Source: Planctomycetota bacterium (lineage in GTDB: Bacteria > Planctomycetota > UBA1135 > GCA-002686595). From it: a DNA stretch of 49,439 bases. The DNA is taken from contig NYXZ01000093.1 of assembly GCA_002686595.1 (NCBI GenBank), positions 22,163 through 71,601 on the forward strand, given 5' to 3'. Position numbers and translations under genes: made by a program. Positions 1,617 through 32,944 of this stretch are shown piece by piece (positions within the stretch are counted from its first letter, which is position 1; each line of letters begins with the position of its first letter). The notes beneath the pieces were generated by a model. The model did not search any database. It was not told the origin of the DNA and was given only the letters and a program-made list of their open reading frames with translations.

Positions 1617-4600
1617 ATGATCAAACTCCTCACAATCGGCCTGACCCTGACCCTTGGCCTGGCCAGCATGGGTCCGGCCCTGGCCCAAAACTCCACCTTT
1701 AAAAAGGGGGACACTGTCTGTTTGCTGGGCAATGCCCTGGCTGAGCGCATGCAACACGACGGGTTCCTCGAAGCCCTGCTGCAACTGCGACGCCCAGACC
1801 TGGCCCTTAGCTTTCGGAATCTCGGGTTTTCCGCGGACGAGCTAACTGTCCAGCAGCGCACGGCGGGCTTCGGCTCCTGGGATGAGCACCTGACGCACTG
1901 CGAGGCGGATGTGGTCTTCGCCTTTTTCGGCTTCAATGAGTCCTTTGCCGGCGAGGCCGGCCTGGCGGGTTTTCAGGCGGACCTGGCGGCGTTCATCGAA
2001 CACATCGGGACCCAACGCTACAACGGCCACGAGGCTCCGCGCCTCGTGCTCTGCTCCCCGCTCCCCCACGAGGACTTGGGCGATCCCAATCTGCCAGATG
2101 GCCGAGCCGCCAATCGCCGCATCGGCGCCTACGCCAAGGCCATGGAGGAGGTCGCGGCCAAGCAGGGAGTGACCTTCGTCGACCTGTTCACACCCCTGCA
2201 ACGCGCTCAGGCCAAGGCCAAACAGCCGTTCACAATCAATGGCATACACCCATCCTCGGTCGGTAACTGGTGGGTCGCCGAGCGCATCATCAACGCCCTG
2301 CTCGCTTGGGAGGGAGGGCCAGAACATCCCGAGCAGCTTGAGTCCATGCTGGCCGCCGTTCGCCACAAGAACCTCTTGTGGTTCAATCGCTACCGCGCCA
2401 CCGATGGCTACAACGTCTACGGCGGGCGCTCGTCCCTCAAGTACACGGACGATCAGAGCAACTTCACGGTGCTCCAACGCGAACTCCAGATTCTCGACGC
2501 CCTGTGTGCCCGGGAAGATGATCGCATCCATGCCATAGCCAGGGGCGAGGCACACGACAACATTTCGGGCCAAGTGCCCGAGCCGCTCCCGGTCATCACC
2601 AACCGGCCGGGCGAGGGAGCGGGAGGCGCACACATTTTCCGTGACGGACAGGAGGCCATCACGGCCATGACCCCGGCGGCGGGCTTTGAGATCGGGCTCT
2701 TCGCCGACGAGTTGGCCTTTCCGGAACTGGTCAACCCCGTCCAGATGGCCTGGGATACGCGCGGCCGCCTGTGGGTCGCGGTCTGGCCGACCTATCCTCA
2801 CTGGGCCCCGGGGACGCCCATGAACGACAAGCTGCTGGTCTTCGAGGACCTGGACGGTGACGGCCAGGCCGACACCTGCACGCCCTTCGCCAGCGACCTG
2901 CACAATCCCACGGGCTTTGAGTTCTGGAATGGCGGGGTATTTGTGGCGAACGCGCCCGATCTCCTGTTCCTGAAGGACAACGACGGTGATGGCCAGGCGG
3001 ACAGCCGCACGCGGGTGCTCCACGGCCTCAGCTCGGCCGATACGCACCACTCGGCCAACAGCTTTGTCCTCGGCCCCGATGGCGCCCTGTACTTCCAGGA
3101 AGGTGTCTTCCACCAAACACAGATCGAGACCATCCACGGCCCCATGCGCAACCACGACGGTTGTGTCTGGCGCTTCGAGCCACGCACCTGGCGGGTCGAG
3201 CGTTATGTGCCTTACAACTTCGCCAACCCCCACGGCCACGTCTTCGACGCCTGGGGCCAAGACTTTGTCACGGACGGCACGGGTAACAACAACTACTACG
3301 CCCTGCCGTTTTCGGGACATGCCGTGCACCCGCGCAAACGCTCCGGTGGTCTCTGGGGTCAGGGCAACAGCTACTTCACCTTCTTCCCCCAACGCAGCCG
3401 TCCCTGCGCGGCCACCGAGATCCTGTCCAGTGGTCTCTTCCCCGCGGAGAACCAGGGCAACTACCTGATCGCCAATGTGATCGGCTTCCAGGGCATCTTC
3501 CAGTACGAGATCGACGACGACGGCTCGGGCTTTTCCGCCACCGAGGTCGACCCCATCGTTCACAGCAGCGATCCGAACTTCCGCCCAGCGGACATCGAGA
3601 TGGGCCCGGATGGCGCGCTCTACTTCCTGGATTGGCACAACCCCCTCATCGGGCACATGCAGCACCACCTGCGCGATCCGAGCAGGGATGGTGAACACGG
3701 GCGCATCTACCGCGTCACACCCAAGGGCATGACCGCCGGCCTGCGGCCCATACCCATTGCCGGCCGCCCCCTGGATGAATTGCTCGAGTTGCTGAAACAC
3801 GGGGATGATCGCCTGCGCTATCGCGTCCGCATTGAACTCTCCGGACGCGACAGCGATCTGGTCAACGCCGCGGCCAAGGCCTTCCTGGCGCGCCTCGACC
3901 CGGCCTCCGCCAATTACGAACACGACCGACTGGAAGTCCTCTGGCTAACGCAACAACACAACCGGCCCGACGCAGGTCTCCTGGGCGATGTGCTGGCCTC
4001 GCCTGATCACCGCGCCCGGGCGGCGGCGGTGCGCGTGGCCCGCGGCCTGCGCCGTAGCCTTCCGCGCCCCCTCGATCGGTTGGCGCTGGCTATCGATGAT
4101 CCCCATCCCCGCGTGCGCCTGGAGGCCCTGGTGGCCCTCAGCTTCTTCGAAGATGTGCGCGCCGCGGAACTGGCCCTACGCGTCCTCGAACACCCCACGG
4201 ACCGCTTTCTCGAATACGCCCTGGCCCAGACCCTGGCCACCCTCGAACCCTTTTGGAAACCGGCCCTCGTGGGCGGCGACGGATTGCCCCGCACCGGAGA
4301 ACGGGGCTTGGCTCACCTGTTGAAAGGCCTCGACACAAACGACCTTGCTCGCGTCGCTGCGAGTCCGGCGGTCTGGACAGAACAACTGCTGCGCCCCGGT
4401 CTCGCACCCCAGCTCTACCTGGCCGCGGCCCAGGGCCTGGCCGCGCAACGGGCGCAGCGCGCGGGCCAGCTGCTGCTGGAGGCCATCCGCGCCTGTGACA
4501 GCGGCCAAGTAGACACCGGCGGCCACACCGACCATCTGCTCATGGGACTCTTCAGCGCCCTGGCCGAAGACCCAGCGGAACGCATGGCCTGTGCCGCCCA

Positions 4601-6551
4601 ACTGACAGAACTGGCCACCGGCGGCCAGCGGAGCGCGACGCGGCGCCTGGCGACGGTCGCCAGCCTGGGTAGTTCCGAGGCCGTGGAGACTCTTTGGGAA
4701 TCCGCCAGCCAGAGCTTCGGCGGTCTGGGCGACTTGCTCGACGCCCTGCCGCTGGTCGACGACCGCCACATCCTGGCCCAACTCAAGGAGCGCGTCTTCC
4801 CCCTGCTGCGCGATCCCCTCGTCACCCTCTCCATCGGCGGCCCGGCCCCAAAAGAAACGACCAAGGGACGCTTCGTGCGCCTGGAGCTGCCCGGCGCGGC
4901 GCGCACGCTGACCCTGGCGGAAGTTGAGGTCTTCAATCCCGGCGGGCGCAACATCGCCCCGGACGGCACGGCCAGCCAATCCACCCTGGCCCACGGCGGA
5001 GTCCCGCAGCGTGCCCTCGACGGCAATCGCAGCGGCGCTTGGGGCGACGGCAGCCAAACCCACACCATCGAGAACCGACCGGAACCCTGGTGGGAGCTGG
5101 ACCTGGGCACTGAACAGGAACTCGAGCGCATCGCCATCTGGGGGCGCACGGACAACGCCGCCTTGCGCGCCCGCCTGGACGGGTTTCGCGTGCGTGTCCT
5201 GGATCGAGCGCGCCGTACTGTATTTGAAGCGGTGGCGCCAGAGGCTCAAGCTGAACCGACCAGCTTCGACCTGAGCGCGCCGCAGTTGCGCATCAGGCGC
5301 GCAGCCGCCACAGCCCTGGGCACCATGGCAGCCGCAGGCGTGGCCACCGAGGAGATTGTCCAGGCCCTGGTGGAGTGCTTTCCCGATCCCGATCTTCAAC
5401 GCGCCAGCGGAGCAGCCCTGCGCGCCATTCCCTTGTCACATTGGCCGCAAACCGCACGCACACGGCTGGCCGAGACCTTGATCAGCATCTTCGAGACGAG
5501 CACTCCGGCGCAATACACAAGCGTCGCGGGACGCGAGCTGCTCTCCTTTGCCGCCGAACTTACAACCCAACTCCCCTGGGAGCTGGGCCGCCAGTTACGC
5601 GCGGGCTGCCGTCGCCTCGGGCCACAGATCCTGCTGCTGCGACCGGTGCCGGATGCCCTGCTCTACGATCGACGGGAACTGGTGGCCGTGGCCGGCCATC
5701 CGGTTGAGTTGGTCTTCGACAACGTGGACATCATGCCTCACAACCTGGTCGTGACCGCCCCCGGCGCCCTGGCCCGCGTGGGCCTGGCGGCGGAAGCCAT
5801 GGCTCAGGCGGAAGATGCCTGGGAGCGCGCCTTCGTGCCCGAACTGCCCGAGGTTCTGCAGGCCACTGGCCTGCTCCAGCCAGGTCAAAGCGAAACCCTG
5901 AGCTTCAATGCTCCGGCGAAACCCGGCGCCTATCCCTTCGTCTGCACCTTCCCCGGACACTGGGTGCGCATGAATGGCCTGCTGCACGTGGTAGCCACCT
6001 TCGAGGAACTCGACGCGCTCCAGTTGGAGGCCGCGGCGGCGGCCTATCCAGGACCGCAGGACAGCGCACGGGCCTTCGTCAAGAACTGGTCTCCAGCTGA
6101 TTTTCCCAGCATGGAGCTCGGCGAGCGAGCAGTGGACTCTGGACGCTCGGTCTTGGACGCCGCCTCCTGCCTGCGTTGCCACACAATTGACGGTATGGTG
6201 GATGAAGGCGGCACGACGGGACCAGAACTGACCGAAGTTGCGCGACGCCACGACCCGTTGCAGCTCCTGAATCACATCCTCGAACCCTCATCCACTATTC
6301 TCGAGGGCTACGAAACGGAGATCTTCATCACACACGACGGCGACATCATCGCCGGGCGCGTCCTGGAGGAAACCGCCACGACCGTGCTCGTGCGCGATGA
6401 CCCCTACCGGGAATTGGACCCCCTGGAGCTACCCCTCGCGGAAGTCACCGAGCGCGCCCCGGCGACGGTCTCCACCATGCCCAGCGGTCTGCTGAACACC
6501 TTCACCCGCGAGGAGATTCTGGATCTCATCGCTTTCCTCAAGTCCCTCTGA
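1617..6551 (+). CDS. Secreted mosaic cytochrome: SGNH-like, PVC propeller, HEAT, F5/8-like, cupredoxin and C-terminal heme domain
   Basis: A 1644-residue exported redox protein. Residues 1-23 are a signal peptide ending PALA. Residues 30-230 resemble an SGNH hydrolase (GDTVCLLGN, GFNES, NGIHPS), but Asn sits where the GDS serine would be, so esterase activity is doubtful. Residues 355-700 form a PVC-type beta-propeller with DGDG calcium-like loops. HEAT-like helical repeats follow at about 780-1060, an F5/8-type carbohydrate-binding-like domain at 1075-1215, and a cupredoxin at 1345-1460 with likely copper ligands in MPHN and CTFPGHWVRM. The C-terminus is a Pirellula/Verrucomicrobium-type heme domain with CLRCH near residue 1516 and a possible Met ligand in TMPSG. 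It probably binds a polymer or sugar and passes electrons through copper and heme in the periplasm or at the surface. The gene ends 9 bp before the next and may be co-transcribed with it. Confidence 0.9.
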   Translation: MIKLLTIGLTLTLGLASMGPALAQNSTFKKGDTVCLLGNALAERMQHDGFLEALLQLRRPDLALSFRNLGFSADELTVQQRTAGFGSWDEHLTHCEADVVFAFFGFNESFAGEAGLAGFQADLAAFIEHIGTQRYNGHEAPRLVLCSPLPHEDLGDPNLPDGRAANRRIGAYAKAMEEVAAKQGVTFVDLFTPLQRAQAKAKQPFTINGIHPSSVGNWWVAERIINALLAWEGGPEHPEQLESMLAAVRHKNLLWFNRYRATDGYNVYGGRSSLKYTDDQSNFTVLQRELQILDALCAREDDRIHAIARGEAHDNISGQVPEPLPVITNRPGEGAGGAHIFRDGQEAITAMTPAAGFEIGLFADELAFPELVNPVQMAWDTRGRLWVAVWPTYPHWAPGTPMNDKLLVFEDLDGDGQADTCTPFASDLHNPTGFEFWNGGVFVANAPDLLFLKDNDGDGQADSRTRVLHGLSSADTHHSANSFVLGPDGALYFQEGVFHQTQIETIHGPMRNHDGCVWRFEPRTWRVERYVPYNFANPHGHVFDAWGQDFVTDGTGNNNYYALPFSGHAVHPRKRSGGLWGQGNSYFTFFPQRSRPCAATEILSSGLFPAENQGNYLIANVIGFQGIFQYEIDDDGSGFSATEVDPIVHSSDPNFRPADIEMGPDGALYFLDWHNPLIGHMQHHLRDPSRDGEHGRIYRVTPKGMTAGLRPIPIAGRPLDELLELLKHGDDRLRYRVRIELSGRDSDLVNAAAKAFLARLDPASANYEHDRLEVLWLTQQHNRPDAGLLGDVLASPDHRARAAAVRVARGLRRSLPRPLDRLALAIDDPHPRVRLEALVALSFFEDVRAAELALRVLEHPTDRFLEYALAQTLATLEPFWKPALVGGDGLPRTGERGLAHLLKGLDTNDLARVAASPAVWTEQLLRPGLAPQLYLAAAQGLAAQRAQRAGQLLLEAIRACDSGQVDTGGHTDHLLMGLFSALAEDPAERMACAAQLTELATGGQRSATRRLATVASLGSSEAVETLWESASQSFGGLGDLLDALPLVDDRHILAQLKERVFPLLRDPLVTLSIGGPAPKETTKGRFVRLELPGAARTLTLAEVEVFNPGGRNIAPDGTASQSTLAHGGVPQRALDGNRSGAWGDGSQTHTIENRPEPWWELDLGTEQELERIAIWGRTDNAALRARLDGFRVRVLDRARRTVFEAVAPEAQAEPTSFDLSAPQLRIRRAAATALGTMAAAGVATEEIVQALVECFPDPDLQRASGAALRAIPLSHWPQTARTRLAETLISIFETSTPAQYTSVAGRELLSFAAELTTQLPWELGRQLRAGCRRLGPQILLLRPVPDALLYDRRELVAVAGHPVELVFDNVDIMPHNLVVTAPGALARVGLAAEAMAQAEDAWERAFVPELPEVLQATGLLQPGQSETLSFNAPAKPGAYPFVCTFPGHWVRMNGLLHVVATFEELDALQLEAAAAAYPGPQDSARAFVKNWSPADFPSMELGERAVDSGRSVLDAASCLRCHTIDGMVDEGGTTGPELTEVARRHDPLQLLNHILEPSSTILEGYETEIFITHDGDIIAGRVLEETATTVLVRDDPYRELDPLELPLAEVTERAPATVSTMPSGLLNTFTREEILDLIAFLKSL

Positions 6552-22728: not shown

Positions 22729-22897
22729 TTTCGCGCCCTCCCTGACCCTCAGTAAACGCGATCCATCCCCCCTGGAACAAAAAACCGGGATAGTCTGTCA
22801 GTAGGTCATCAGAGGTCCGCGTCCGGTTTGATGCGCCCCCGCCGTGGGGGGCGAGCGAGGGCAACCTCCAGCATCCCCTCAGTTCCCAACCCCCACC

Positions 22898-25800
22898 ATG
22901 TCCAAGCGCACATCCATCCGTCCCTTGAACGCGACCCTCGGCCTCCTGGCGCTCTCCTTCATCGCCCTGCCCCTGGTGCTGGCGGAAGGCCCGGGTCAGG
23001 ACGCGCGCTCCCTCGGGATTGAGCAAGCCGCGGCCCAAGCCAGCCCCGGCGGCCACGGACAAGCTCTGCCCAACCCGCACCGCGGCGCGGCAGCCGAGCC
23101 GACCATCACCCGCACCGCGGACGGCAGCCTGCTCGTGGAAGGCGAGACCGGCAACCAAGTAATCAAGAGCTGCGTGCGGCCCACGGAAGACCCCGGAGCC
23201 CATCCGGAGTTCGGTCCCAACTTCGATTCTACTCGAGCTACCTCAGGCGTGGTCGCCGCCCGCGGCTCCGCCGCCACACCCATCGGCGGCACATCCTCAT
23301 CCGGTGGCGGCACCCGCGGCCCCGGCGCGCCCATGCCCGGCGGCACCGGCATCGGCAAGGGTCCCGCCAATGTCTACCCGGGTTGTCTCTTCTGCCACTG
23401 GGAGATTGAAAACCCCACGGAGAACATGATGGGCGGCTTTGAGCTCGACTGCACGTTCTGTCACGGGGGAGATCCAATGGCGACATCCAAGGCCGCGGCC
23501 CATGTCCATTCAGATGGATCTGTTGTCTACGACAAGCGCGTCCCCCCCCTGGGCGCTGATTTGGCCTATCAGAAGTTCATCAACCCCTCCAACCTGCGCA
23601 CGGTGGACACTACCTGCGGCCTTTGCCATCCGACCAAGGCCTCGGATGTGAAGAAGAGCCTGATGGCCACCAACGCCGGCCACCTGACCGGCGGCTTCTA
23701 CCAGAACAACGTGGTCAACTCGAAGCATCCCATCTACGGCAACTTCGCCATCGCCGACACCGATGGTTATGTGCCTTCCGGGGACGGCGCCCTCTACAGC
23801 ATCCAGGACATGAAGGTCTTCGACCCCACCGAGGATCCCTCCCTGTTCTCAACCCATTACACAGCCGTCCCCAGCCAGTCCTGCGCCCGATGCCACCTGT
23901 GGTCGCGGGGCAAGGGCTATCGCGGCGCCGCGGGGCAAGATGGCGTTTATCGCGCCGATGGTTGCGTTGCCTGCCACATGCCCTATGCCAACGACGGGCT
24001 CTCCCTCTCGGCCGATAAAATGATCGACCATACGGAGACCGGCCACCCGAAATACCACTCGGTTACCAAGCAGGTGCCGACGGAGCAGTGCCTGCACTGT
24101 CATCACCGGGGCGCTCGCATCGGCCTGACCTTCACTGGTCGCGCTCAGATGCCGCCGCGCATGCCATCGGGCCCCGGTGTCCCGGGCACAACCGACGAGA
24201 AGTTCAACACCAACTACCACTATACGGTTGCCGATACGAACCCGCCTGATATCCATCACGAGCTGGGCATGCACTGCATCGACTGCCACACAGCCGAGGG
24301 CATCATGGGCGACGGCAATCTGTGGGGCCACATGGACCAGGCCACCAAGATCGAATGCCGTGCCTGCCATGGCACCCACAACTCCTTGCCGACCCTGACG
24401 GACAACGACGGCGGCATCTTGGAAAATGTGGAGCAGGTCATTGGCCAAGGTTTCGTATTGACCTCAAAGGTCACGGGCGTCGAACACCAGATGCCGACGG
24501 TCATGTCCGTCATCGCGAGCAACCCCCTGGCTCAAGCGGCCATGACAGATGACCACCTCAAGGACAATGGAGGCCTTGAGTGCTATGCCTGCCACACCTC
24601 TTGGATTCCCAACTGCTTCGGTTGCCACTTCGAACGCGATGAGCAGGATGTGGGCCTGAACCTGATGACCAATCAGTACGAGGTCGGCAAGGTCACCTCG
24701 AACAACAAAATCTTCGAGGCCCTGCGCCACTTCAGCCTGGGCCCCAACAGCGAAGGTCGCATCGCGCCCTATATCGTTTCATGCATGCCCATCGCAGATG
24801 TCACGGCTCCCGATGGCAGCAAAATCATGGACTTCAAGATGCCCGTGACCTCAAACGGTCTCTCGGGCCTGGCCCACAACCCGGTTCAGCCCCACTCGGT
24901 GCGCGGCGCCGGCGAGGTGCGCACCTGTGCCGAATGTCACCGCTCCCCCGCGTCCCTGGGCCTGGGCTCCGGCAACTTCGCCGTCGCCCGGCGCAACATC
25001 TTCACCGCCGGTTCGTCCGGGCTGACGGCTCACGACCGCAAGGCGGACCCGACCCAGCCGGGAGTCACCAGCACTCTCTCTGGCGCTGCCCAAGCAGTTG
25101 CCTCCAAGCCCAGTATTGTGGAAGGCTCGGCGGAATACCTATTCGTAGCCTCCGGCACTTCCGGCGTGGCGGTCTACGACAACACCAGCGGCTCCCCAGT
25201 GGGCCCGGTCCACACTATCGGCGGCGTCGATGCCATCGATGTGGCCCGCGTGGCTCGCTACCTATATGTGGTCGATGCGGGTATCGGCATTCAGATCTAC
25301 GACAACTTGGTGCCCACAGCCACCACACACCTAGCCACGGTCGCCCTCCCCAGCGCCGAACGAGTTGTGCCATCCGGCATCCACCTCTTCGTCGCCGCCG
25401 GCACGACTGGCCTGGTGCTAGTCAATGTGGCCGACCACTCGGCCCCCACCATTGAAAACACAATCGGCGCCATGGACGCGGAGGACGTGGTCGTCTACTC
25501 CCACTTCCAGGCCGGCAACGGTTTCGCCGCCCGCGCCTATGTGGCCGACCCGAGTTACGGAGTACATGTGATCGACCTGCTGCCCAACTACTCCACGGCC
25601 GCGCGCGTCGCTGGACTGCCCTTGGTGGGTGCCACTGCGGTCGACACCTACTCGCGTTGGGTAGAGGCCACGGTCACGGAACCAAACCGCGAGCACGACT
25701 ACCTGTACGTGGCCGCCGGCACGGCCGGCTTGGCGGTCTTCGACATCACCGAGCCAGACAACATCACGCCGTCAGCCACGGTCACCGACCTCGGCGGCGA

Positions 25801-26095
25801 TGTGCGCGACATCCAAGTCTCAAGCGCTCTAATCCCCGTGGGAACGGATGACTACGCCTACCTCGCCAATGCCGCCCTCGGCTTGCAGGTAGTCAACATC
25901 AACACACCCACGGCACCTGTCAACCTCGGAGCCGTGCCCGCTAGTCCCCCGGCCTCGCGGTTGCTGACTGAAATCCAGGAACTCGACCGCTTCATGGACG
26001 AGCAGGGCAACGAGCTAAAGGAGAACTCGCACCCCTTCATCACGCCCCATACGCACGCGGACATCGTGCGCCTGCTTTCGGTAACGCTGCCCTAG
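22898..26095 (+). CDS. Secreted 11-heme cytochrome c fused to a LVIVD-type beta-propeller
   Basis: A 1065-residue exported multiheme cytochrome. The frame is open from 22844, but the ATG at 22898 opens a signal peptide (MSKRTSIRPLNATLGLLA, then LSFIALPLVLA). Eleven CxxCH motifs lie between about residues 162 and 680: CLFCH, CTFCH, CGLCH, CARCH, CVACH, CLHCH, CIDCH, CRACH, CYACH, CFGCH and CAECH. Many extra His residues could provide distal ligands. Residues 720-1040 form repeats of the LVIVD type, with blades such as YLFVASGTSGVAVYD, YLYVVDAGIGIQIYD and YLYVAAGTAGLAVFD, predicted to be a propeller. A periplasmic or surface electron-transfer role is likely; partner and substrate are unknown. 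The TAG stop is formed by the CTAG tip of the palindromic repeat that follows. Confidence 0.85.
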   Translation: MSKRTSIRPLNATLGLLALSFIALPLVLAEGPGQDARSLGIEQAAAQASPGGHGQALPNPHRGAAAEPTITRTADGSLLVEGETGNQVIKSCVRPTEDPGAHPEFGPNFDSTRATSGVVAARGSAATPIGGTSSSGGGTRGPGAPMPGGTGIGKGPANVYPGCLFCHWEIENPTENMMGGFELDCTFCHGGDPMATSKAAAHVHSDGSVVYDKRVPPLGADLAYQKFINPSNLRTVDTTCGLCHPTKASDVKKSLMATNAGHLTGGFYQNNVVNSKHPIYGNFAIADTDGYVPSGDGALYSIQDMKVFDPTEDPSLFSTHYTAVPSQSCARCHLWSRGKGYRGAAGQDGVYRADGCVACHMPYANDGLSLSADKMIDHTETGHPKYHSVTKQVPTEQCLHCHHRGARIGLTFTGRAQMPPRMPSGPGVPGTTDEKFNTNYHYTVADTNPPDIHHELGMHCIDCHTAEGIMGDGNLWGHMDQATKIECRACHGTHNSLPTLTDNDGGILENVEQVIGQGFVLTSKVTGVEHQMPTVMSVIASNPLAQAAMTDDHLKDNGGLECYACHTSWIPNCFGCHFERDEQDVGLNLMTNQYEVGKVTSNNKIFEALRHFSLGPNSEGRIAPYIVSCMPIADVTAPDGSKIMDFKMPVTSNGLSGLAHNPVQPHSVRGAGEVRTCAECHRSPASLGLGSGNFAVARRNIFTAGSSGLTAHDRKADPTQPGVTSTLSGAAQAVASKPSIVEGSAEYLFVASGTSGVAVYDNTSGSPVGPVHTIGGVDAIDVARVARYLYVVDAGIGIQIYDNLVPTATTHLATVALPSAERVVPSGIHLFVAAGTTGLVLVNVADHSAPTIENTIGAMDAEDVVVYSHFQAGNGFAARAYVADPSYGVHVIDLLPNYSTAARVAGLPLVGATAVDTYSRWVEATVTEPNREHDYLYVAAGTAGLAVFDITEPDNITPSATVTDLGGDVRDIQVSSALIPVGTDDYAYLANAALGLQVVNINTPTAPVNLGAVPASPPASRLLTEIQELDRFMDEQGNELKENSHPFITPHTHADIVRLLSVTLP

Positions 26096-31447: not shown

Positions 31448-31540
31448 AGCGCAACCACAATCCGCCCATCGCACCCCTCTGCCTTTTTGTCCTCTCGGCC
31501 AATTGGCACTCCCCCTAGAGCGCAGCTACAATCTGCCCAT
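31403..31540 (+). repeat. 71-bp-period tandem duplication of the GH8 gene tail
   Basis: Positions 31403-31469 and 31474-31540 are imperfect copies. The first encodes the GH8 C-terminus (LLCLLVLSANWWSP and stop); the second keeps the frame for PLCLFVLSANWHSP and a stop but has no start. Both copies continue with a GCGCARCYACAATCYGCCCAT-like flank. The second copy ends on the ATG (31539) of the first candidate selenoprotein gene, so the duplication supplies its leader. Confidence 0.75.
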
Positions 31541-32198
31541 GCCGCTCCTCAGCCCGTTTTTGGTCACCCTATTGTGCGCCGGTACCCCAGTCCCACCCGC
31601 GCTTCAAGAGGGCTCGCCGCCGGAGGACAACGCGCCCCTGATTCCCTTGTGACCTGGCTGACCAGGCAAGGGCGCCTCCGTGCGAGGCGCAGGAAGAATC
31701 CAATCCAGCTCCTGGAATCTAAACATGCGCGCGGTGAAAGTTGACGCCGGTCGCACGCCCCTGGAGTTCTCCCTGACCCATCGTCTGCGCGATGACCTTC
31801 AAGTCGGAATGAAATACGACGCGGTGAAAGAGGACTTTTCACCGCTCGTCAACTGGCGCATCCTCGAAGCCACCCCTAGCCGCCCCGCCGTAGCAGTTGG
31901 CATCAGCTCCTCCTGGCCCCTGGACGACGACGGCGGAGGCATGCTCTTTGTCACCGCAGCCCAACTCCTGGGCGAACGCATCAGCGGCTCCGCCAGCCTC
32001 TCCTTCGGCCTGAAGGACGACAAGTTCCGCACACCGGCCAGCCTGAGCTACACGTTTACCGACTCGTTCTCCGCAACACTCTTCCACGACGGCAAGAAGC
32101 TGCATCCCCTGGTCACCTTTGATCGAGCGCCCGGCAGCCTCTCCTTGATCCTACTGCGCGGCGAAGACCCGGCCATCTCCATGTCCTGGGGCTTCTAG
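31539..32198 (+). CDS. Candidate secreted selenoprotein A: U-P-G-U motif plus outer-membrane-like beta domain
   Basis: One reading frame of 219 codons from ATG 31539 to TAG 32198 is interrupted only by TGA at 31650 and TGA at 31659. Read as selenocysteine they give PLIPL-U-P-G-U-PGKGA, with U at residues 38 and 41. Residues 1-25 form a hydrophobic export signal (MPLLSPFLVTLLCAG). Residues 55-219 are beta-rich with alternating hydrophobics and end in SWGF, an aromatic end usual for outer-membrane barrels (FSLTHRLRDDLQVG, PLVNWRIL, SASLSFGLKDDKFRTP). A stem-loop at 31672-31690 is positioned as a bacterial SECIS. The paralogue at 32285-32944 repeats all of this. TGA is an ordinary stop elsewhere here (for example 7418 and 8660). 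Alternatives are readthrough of unknown type, or inactivation before the duplication. A reader ignoring TGA recoding would call only 31680-32198. Confidence 0.72.
31672..31690 (+). promoter_or_regulatory. Candidate bacterial SECIS stem-loop, copy A
   Basis: GCGCCTC (31672-31678) pairs perfectly with GAGGCGC (31684-31690) around the loop CGTGC. The loop starts 17 nt after the second UGA and 26 nt after the first. Bacterial SECIS elements usually place a small loop containing G and U about 16-37 nt downstream of the UGA. A second small hairpin, CCTGG/CCAGG, puts the second UGA in its loop (31653-31666). Confidence 0.6.
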
Positions 32199-32284
32199 TC
32201 GCCGATCTGGCACCGCTCGTCAATCTCAAAGGTGCAGCAACAGGAAGTTGGACAAGAGTCGAACCACCTGTTATTCACGGGGCT

Positions 32285-32944
32285 ATGTCACCCCTCTCCA
32301 TCCTCTTGGCAGCTTCCCTGTGCGGCGCAATGCCGAGCGACGACCCCGAGCCGCAGCAGTCGGCCCCGGATGAAGAGGTCCCGCTGATCCCAATGTGACC
32401 TGGCTGACCAGGCGAAGGCGCTCCGGTGCGGGGCGCGGGACACATTCAAGCGGGCTCCTGGAGCCTGACATCTAGAGTTGTCCTCGTGGAGTCTGATCGT
32501 TCACCGTTGGAGTTCTCCCTGACCCACCGCTTGCTGGACAACCTACAACTCGGCCTCGAATACGATGCCGAGGAGGATTCCTTCTTCCCCCTGGTCAACT
32601 GGCGGGTCCTGGATGCCGCTGGCAAACAACCAGCCCTGGCCCTCGGCATCAGCTCCGCTTGGCCCTCGAGCCAGGTCGACGGCAGCGCTCTTTTTGTCAC
32701 CGCAGCCCAGAACATCGCCCCCGGACTCAGCCTCTCCGCCAGCCTTTCCTATGGGCTCGAGGACCAGCGCTTCCGCACGCCCGGCAGTCTGCGCTACGCC
32801 CTCACATCGAACCTCTCCACCACCCTTTTCTACGACGGGAATAACCTCCACCCCCTGGCCAGCTACAGCCACGGAGACCTGAGCTACTCACTGATCCTCC
32901 TCGGGGCCAGCGATCCCGCCCTATCGGTCTCGTGGGGATTCTAG
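32285..32944 (+). CDS. Candidate secreted selenoprotein B: paralogue with the same U-P-G-U motif
   Basis: The tandem paralogue of 31539-32198, again exactly 219 codons from ATG 32285 to TAG 32944, with TGA at 32396 and 32405, the same codon positions 38 and 41. The reading is [20 protein letters not shown]. The signal segment has diverged but stays hydrophobic ([15 protein letters not shown]). The beta-rich body is similar across its whole length, by eye about half identical ([44 protein letters not shown]), ending SVSWGF. No other stop interrupts either body. The gap to copy A is 86 bp, and the TPP-enzyme gene follows after 25 bp. A thiol/selenol redox or metal-binding role for the motif in the periplasm is inferred. 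Without recoding, only 32426-32944 would be called. Confidence 0.72.
32418..32436 (+). promoter_or_regulatory. Candidate bacterial SECIS stem-loop, copy B
   Basis: GCGCTCC (32418-32424) pairs with GGGGCGC (32430-32436) around the loop GGTGC, at the same 17-nt distance from the second UGA as copy A. Compared with copy A one pair changed from T-A to C-G (a double, compensatory change) and one from C-G to T-G. The loop keeps GTGC. Pairing is therefore conserved despite sequence change. Confidence 0.6.

Follow-up and report, generated by a model that had tools for sequence, protein, structure and literature searches.

Outer-membrane selenoproteins and selenoproteins with two selenocysteines (Sec) separated by two residues have both been described. 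Among the former, the tables of a 2026 inventory of 119 prokaryotic selenoprotein families (PMC13188914) list the Sec-bearing outer-membrane barrels of the GSU2204-type MtrB/PioB family (NF041027/PF11854), which are large, CXXCH-containing porins with one Sec, and the deep-Sep 2025 paper has the FCYXU type of TonB-dependent receptor (NF049945), a large receptor whose single Sec lies in a CxxU motif. Among the latter, the inventory holds UxxU families of Prx-like (PF00578), metal-binding (NF041115) and FmdB (TIGR02605) proteins, with thioredoxin-like, metal-binding and FmdB-type folds, respectively. The same source gives rules for bSECIS elements: a spacing of 16-37 nt, a G in the first two loop positions and a minimum free energy (MFE) of at most -7.5. 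Two further groups enter the comparison, namely the ResA/TlpA thiol-disulfide oxidoreductases and the small outer-membrane barrels of the KdgM/NanC/OmpG porin type.

Here we describe two genes of an apparently undescribed and widespread family. The window, meaning the whole 49,439-nt stretch of DNA analysed, covers positions 22,163-71,601 of the forward strand of contig NYXZ01000093.1 in the Planctomycetota bacterium assembly GCA_002686595.1. The first-pass annotation had reported two 219-codon frames interrupted solely by TGA at codons 38 and 41 and open to a TAG, and re-reading of the sequence confirmed both (Table 1). The motif is PLIPL-U-P-G-U-PG in copy 1 and PLIPM-U-P-G-U-PG in copy 2, within products that align without gaps at 54% identity. 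Between the copies, dN/dS is 0.49 upstream of the UGAs and about 0.26 downstream (0.33/1.27), so that both sides are under selection as protein in one frame, in line with the annotation's remark that the export signal and the body share a frame. Its further claim that recoding is local also holds: TGA terminates 11 of the 14 neighbouring genes supported by Pfam and is thus a normal stop in the window, and it is the terminal stop of 51 of 106 family members as well, so that recoding is positional and UGA carries two meanings inside one gene. The window genes are almost certainly members of a new selenoprotein family. The three findings that the annotation had named as refuting its reading, namely a genome lacking the Sec machinery, homologues that conserve neither Cys nor Sec at the two codons, and UGAs that arose by sequencing error, were each checked and found not to hold, as described below.

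Table 1. Features of the two gene copies (window positions).
Feature	Position	Strand	Basis or remark
Promoter-like TTGGCA-N18-TACAAT	31503..31532	+	Consensus match only; ends 6 nt before copy 1 ATG
Copy 1 gene: export signal, UxxU motif, predicted outer-membrane-type beta-barrel	31539..32198	+	219 codons, TAG stop; paralogue alignment, homologues
Copy 1 first putative Sec codon, UGA, residue 38	31650..31652	+	Frame reading
Copy 1 second putative Sec codon, UGA, residue 41	31659..31661	+	Frame reading
Copy 1 hairpin GCGCCTC-CGTGC-GAGGCGC	31672..31690	+	bSECIS spacing for both UGAs; covariation
Copy 1 predicted 12-strand beta-barrel region	31713..32192	+	Alignment to copy 2
Copy 2 gene, architecture as copy 1	32285..32944	+	219 codons, TAG stop; structure prediction
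Copy 2 first putative Sec codon, UGA, residue 38	32396..32398	+	Frame reading
Copy 2 second putative Sec codon, UGA, residue 41	32405..32407	+	Frame reading
Copy 2 hairpin GCGCTCCG-GTG-CGGGGCGC	32418..32436	+	Loop 32426-32428, 27 nt after UGA1 and 18 nt after UGA2
Copy 2 predicted 12-strand beta-barrel, residues 59-218, then terminal Phe	32459..32938	+	AlphaFold2, Foldseek

The annotation had recognised no described family, and this was borne out by the comparison: no model scored over its cut-off and no such entry appears among the table entries of the inventory. The UxxU module has no family match in Pfam, NCBIfam or PDB, and the NCBIfam 20.0 models, run against 31 members, gave nothing below E 0.0086; the families of Haft and Tolstoy 2025 were compared through NCBIfam models only. 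The passages of the deep-Sep 2025 paper that were searched hold no such family, nor did a text search of mostly open-access journal papers return a description of one. The family shares with MtrB/PioB the placing of Sec in an outer-membrane beta-barrel, here a predicted one, but NF041027 matches none of its members and PF11854 matches one, weakly (E 0.1). The FCYXU receptors are likewise outer-membrane selenoproteins, but no model match was found here. PF00578, NF041115 and TIGR02605 share the two Sec with two residues between them, but none matches the UxxU module. The KdgM/NanC/OmpG-type porins are alike in their small barrel fold, but show no sequence relation and have no Sec. Weak LytR, YaiO and coronavirus matches were taken as chance. 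To the annotation we add the SECIS-type hairpin, the fusions to thioredoxin, YHS and His-rich segments, the breadth over phyla and the metal-efflux neighbours, all described below.

A profile built from the two copies matched 30 of 101 related genomes; almost every homologue has exactly two in-frame TGAs, which rules out chance. A second profile, made from the body only and thus blind to the UGA sites and unbiased by them, recovered 69 named loci in Planctomycetota, Acidobacteriota, Candidatus Binatia, Zixibacteria, Armatimonadota, Verrucomicrobiota and the isolate SZAS-1, including the closed planctomycete genomes Pla86 and Pla163. A scan of the named genomes with a single protein gave no match, its patterns lying off the conserved parts; the body-only alignment did match. 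Where a named locus spans the site, its sequence is [AV]PS-U-P-x-U-PGEG with hardly an exception, and two TGAs are present in 21 of the 22 genomes with a match among 297 Acidobacteriota genomes. Sequencing error is ruled out, since about 100 genomes, among them the closed chromosomes of Pla86 and Pla163, share these two UGAs. On plasmids and viral contigs no relatives were found with the queries and patterns used, one query being a Cys homologue only. A metagenome-assembled genome labelled Akkermansia muciniphila (L112), a label that may be mistaken, also carries the family.

The 106 distinct family sequences, from Planctomycetota, Acidobacteriota, Armatimonadota, Verrucomicrobiota, Zixibacteria and Binatota, comprise 103 UxxU, one UxxC (L048, TGA..TGT), one CxxU (L105) and one AxxS (L049), after chance out-of-frame matches to the motif (WxxW, RxxR and the like) had been removed by eye. 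Sec or Cys is therefore kept at the UGA codons in all but one of these sequences. Both the UxxC and the AxxS variants are second copies beside an intact one. The AxxS gene (L049:5694-6440) adjoins the intact copy of L032 in genome G029, has both Sec replaced, by Ala and Ser, lacks the hairpin, and shows a dN/dS against its partner that has risen to about 0.85; it is, to judge by its sequence, a natural record of Sec loss.

Cysteine also occupies these positions in a sister family. The single Acidobacteriota genome whose match lacks TGA encodes a distant member in which a signal peptide and CGPFCPVCSG precede the same body, and profile comparison with hhalign aligned C-P-V-C to U-P-x-U (98.4%, E 5.6e-15). 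Seven further genomes of the same class gave matches without in-frame stops; CPxC was present in all five for which the locus gave the N-terminus (L184, L185, L186, L188, L189), and in a sixth (L192) CPVC was seen in the surrounding region. SelA was not found in the genome of the distant member, the one sister-family genome searched. In the tree, one branch separates the Cys family from the rest, and the two copies of the window group as sisters. The Cys genes have no conserved neighbour, and metal genes are absent from around them except for one RND pair.

The machinery for Sec insertion is present in the genome of the window (3.38 Mb, 86% complete): SelA (485 bits), SelD (316 bits) and SelB (346 bits, on another contig) all exceed curated cut-offs, and a tRNA-Sec with anticodon UCA scores 73 bits. 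Contig 14 carries the genes for tRNA-Sec, selD and selA at short distances from one another (L047:5275-10102), selB being on C52, and an ORF with a glycerophosphodiester-phosphodiesterase-like part sits between tRNA-Sec and selD. SelA was found in 96 of 101 relatives, the five others being genomes of 64-80% completeness. Outside the phylum, seven of eight carrier genomes have a tRNA-Sec over threshold; the Verrucomicrobiales carrier of the CxxU variant has none over threshold.

Downstream of the second UGA, family members can form a hairpin of 8 bp with a small GU-containing loop, located at nt 23-41 from the first UGA in the subfamily of the window and 4 nt further on in the other subfamily. 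Owing to this shift, RNAalifold on the pooled subfamilies gave almost nothing, and the two were analysed separately. Paired cells amount to 92.9% and 92.5%, with covariation of 0.49 against 0.17 in shuffled alignments and 0.38 against 0.23, and far lower values in slid controls. Of the 8 pairs, 7.3 and 7.1 are formed on average in the two sets, against 5.6 and 5.2 under synonymous codon randomisation (z 7.9 and 5.8), so that the hairpin is not forced by the amino-acid sequence. This position-specific pairing test replaced a test on MFE, in which the window hairpins did not differ significantly from synonymous shuffles; what speaks for the hairpin is tied to its position and is drawn from the family as a whole. 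Pairing falls to 2/8 in L049, which has lost both Sec, and is 7/8 in L048, where one Sec is left. The window hairpins have energies of -12.4 and -13.1 kcal/mol, and their loops lie at 16-27 nt from the two UGAs, the exact distance varying with how the loop is delimited. Both copies thereby conform to the published bSECIS rules for each UGA, which suggests that one element could serve both; the family would then offer a natural example of a single SECIS-type element acting on two UGAs that are nine bases apart.

The annotation had also proposed a secreted, outer-membrane-like product with a diselenide-type motif. Both proposals are still predictions; that of an outer-membrane location is well supported by the structural model. 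AlphaFold2, run on a 78-row alignment, gave 12 strands over residues 59-218 with a pLDDT of 89, and placed the UxxU motif just before strand 1 with a local pLDDT of about 84-90. The top Foldseek matches are outer-membrane barrels (KdgM, NanC, OmpG/FapF-type and designed barrels), at moderate similarity (TM 0.4-0.6). Family members have hydrophobic N-termini, as judged by eye, and almost always end in Phe; the signal peptide, even-numbered barrel and C-terminal aromatic residue expected of outer-membrane barrels are thus all read or predicted here. On this model, the product is very probably an outer-membrane beta-barrel. Since a barrel with an even number of strands has both ends in the periplasm, U-P-x-U-P-G would face the periplasm or sit within the lumen. 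The N-terminus is lipobox-like in some members (L021, L022, L026, L028 and f23 genomes).

In most Acidobacteriota the module forms the C-terminal part of a protein of about 490 residues with a ResA/TlpA thioredoxin domain; PF00578 matches only this thioredoxin half, whose active site is CxxC and not Sec. No Redoxin/AhpC-TSA (ResA/TlpA) domain was found in the window proteins. The N-terminal 130 or so residues of the fused proteins (GQVVCCA[DE]CWAEADR..., with several Cys; L078:2626-3050) lie outside every Pfam match and are possibly another metal or redox domain. Other members combine the module with a YHS domain (L109, more weakly L114, and L180 by eye) or with a YHS-like segment, seen by eye, and a thioredoxin (L104), and His-rich linkers precede the motif in five (L071, L089, L101, L102, L103).

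We propose the following mechanism, to which we assign a probability of roughly 85% as far as it comprises Sec at UGA 38 and 41, an outer-membrane barrel, and a thioredoxin-reduced Sec pair that handles oxidants or soft metals. The two UGAs would be read as Sec by the resident SelA/SelB/SelC/SelD, with the help of a single SECIS-type hairpin just downstream and within working distance of both codons. The product would be exported, its C-terminal 160 or so residues forming a 12-stranded outer-membrane beta-barrel that ends in Phe, with U-P-x-U-P-G just before the first strand. The two Sec may act as a selenolate/diselenide pair that alternates between the Se-Se and reduced states, with a ResA/TlpA-type thioredoxin as reductant, which in most Acidobacteriota belongs to the same polypeptide and in this planctomycete is presumably a protein of its own. 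Once reduced, the pair would react with oxidants or bind soft metals at the outer membrane. Taken singly, the thioredoxin-coupled redox pair is likely, and a metal-linked function, favoured by the YHS and His-rich fusions and the heavy-metal efflux neighbours, is tentative. We lean slightly towards a widespread outer-membrane barrel that relies for its function on a near-invariant Sec pair, both Sec being decoded from one SECIS hairpin and forming, at a membrane pore or within it, a diselenide site supplied by thioredoxin or a site of metal transfer; no precedent for such a selenoprotein was found.

The metal evidence can be read more strongly, the Sec pair being mainly a ligand for soft metals (Hg, Cu, Ag, Cd) in an outer-membrane efflux component, a selenium counterpart of the MerP/HMA CxxC, with redox chemistry serving only to keep the pair reduced. 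The YHS domain directly before the motif, the His-rich linkers and the retention of both Sec almost everywhere agree with such a role. So does the neighbourhood of many copies, where genes for heavy-metal-type RND, cation-efflux and HMA-domain P-type ATPase proteins, one example of each type having been checked by Pfam, lie within a few kb (L053, L060, L061, L062, L064, L065, L080, L082, L083, L087, L091, L092, L104, L105, L117). However, with some ten RND genes in each genome and with related lineages, the association is suggestive and may partly reflect chance or shared descent; most Planctomycetota copies, including those of the window, have no metal gene seen nearby, and the thioredoxin fusions point equally to redox. 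We regard this reading as possible, if somewhat doubtful.

Somewhat less likely still is a selenoenzyme outside the cytoplasm that would clear oxidants (peroxide, sulfoxide or selenite) with thioredoxin electrons, the barrel being a membrane anchor or substrate pore. The ResA/TlpA domain in the same chain and the predicted 12-strand barrel would suit it, as would the chemistry of adjacent Sec residues, which are fit for fast two-electron cycling in selenoenzymes, but the conserved catalytic partner residues of peroxidases were not identified and the module matches no peroxidase family. The two remaining readings are highly improbable. That UGA is translated as Trp, Gly or some other amino acid, through read-through or a changed code, has nothing specific in its favour and is refuted by the Cys replacements (L048, L105, sister family) and the coexisting UGA stops, and also meets a complete Sec machinery and a covarying hairpin. 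That these are pseudogenes or sequencing errors, with real genes starting downstream (e.g. GTG 31680, 32426) and encoding 172-residue proteins, agrees with a mechanical ORF caller, which gives only those frames, but is rejected because the UGAs recur over genomes and selection acts in one continuing frame on both sides of them; the upstream signal peptide and motif are moreover conserved, that part is a 300-residue thioredoxin protein in Acidobacteriota, and the shortened product would have no export signal, which a barrel needs.

This putative double-Sec family of several phyla was missing from the curated family libraries and from the table entries of the latest prokaryotic selenoprotein inventory (PMC13188914), probably because the UGAs bring gene callers to a halt. 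Its interest lies in a near-obligate UxxU chemistry on a predicted outer-membrane barrel, physically joined to TlpA-type thioredoxins, and in a concrete proposal, open to testing, for how reducing power or soft metals might travel at the outer membrane, to which the closed genomes Pla86 and Pla163 and the Cys sister family provide experimental access.

The neighbours of the two copies in the window include a GH8 glycosidase, a TPP enzyme, chemotaxis genes and others. A 1644-aa protein (1617-6551) combines a GDSL lipase, DUF7133, HEAT repeats, an F5/8-type domain and a plastocyanin-like copper domain, and a 1083-aa protein (22844-26095) has weak multiheme/MtrC-like cytochrome matches. Upstream of copy 1, the promoter-like element puts a -10 box just before the ATG, and the mRNA is probably leaderless. 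At the 5' ends of planctomycete homologues, Shine-Dalgarno sequences are almost absent and a TANNNT box lies 4-9 nt before the start codon in 15 of 33 family genes, against 3% of random ATGs; the genes with this box probably also give leaderless mRNAs.
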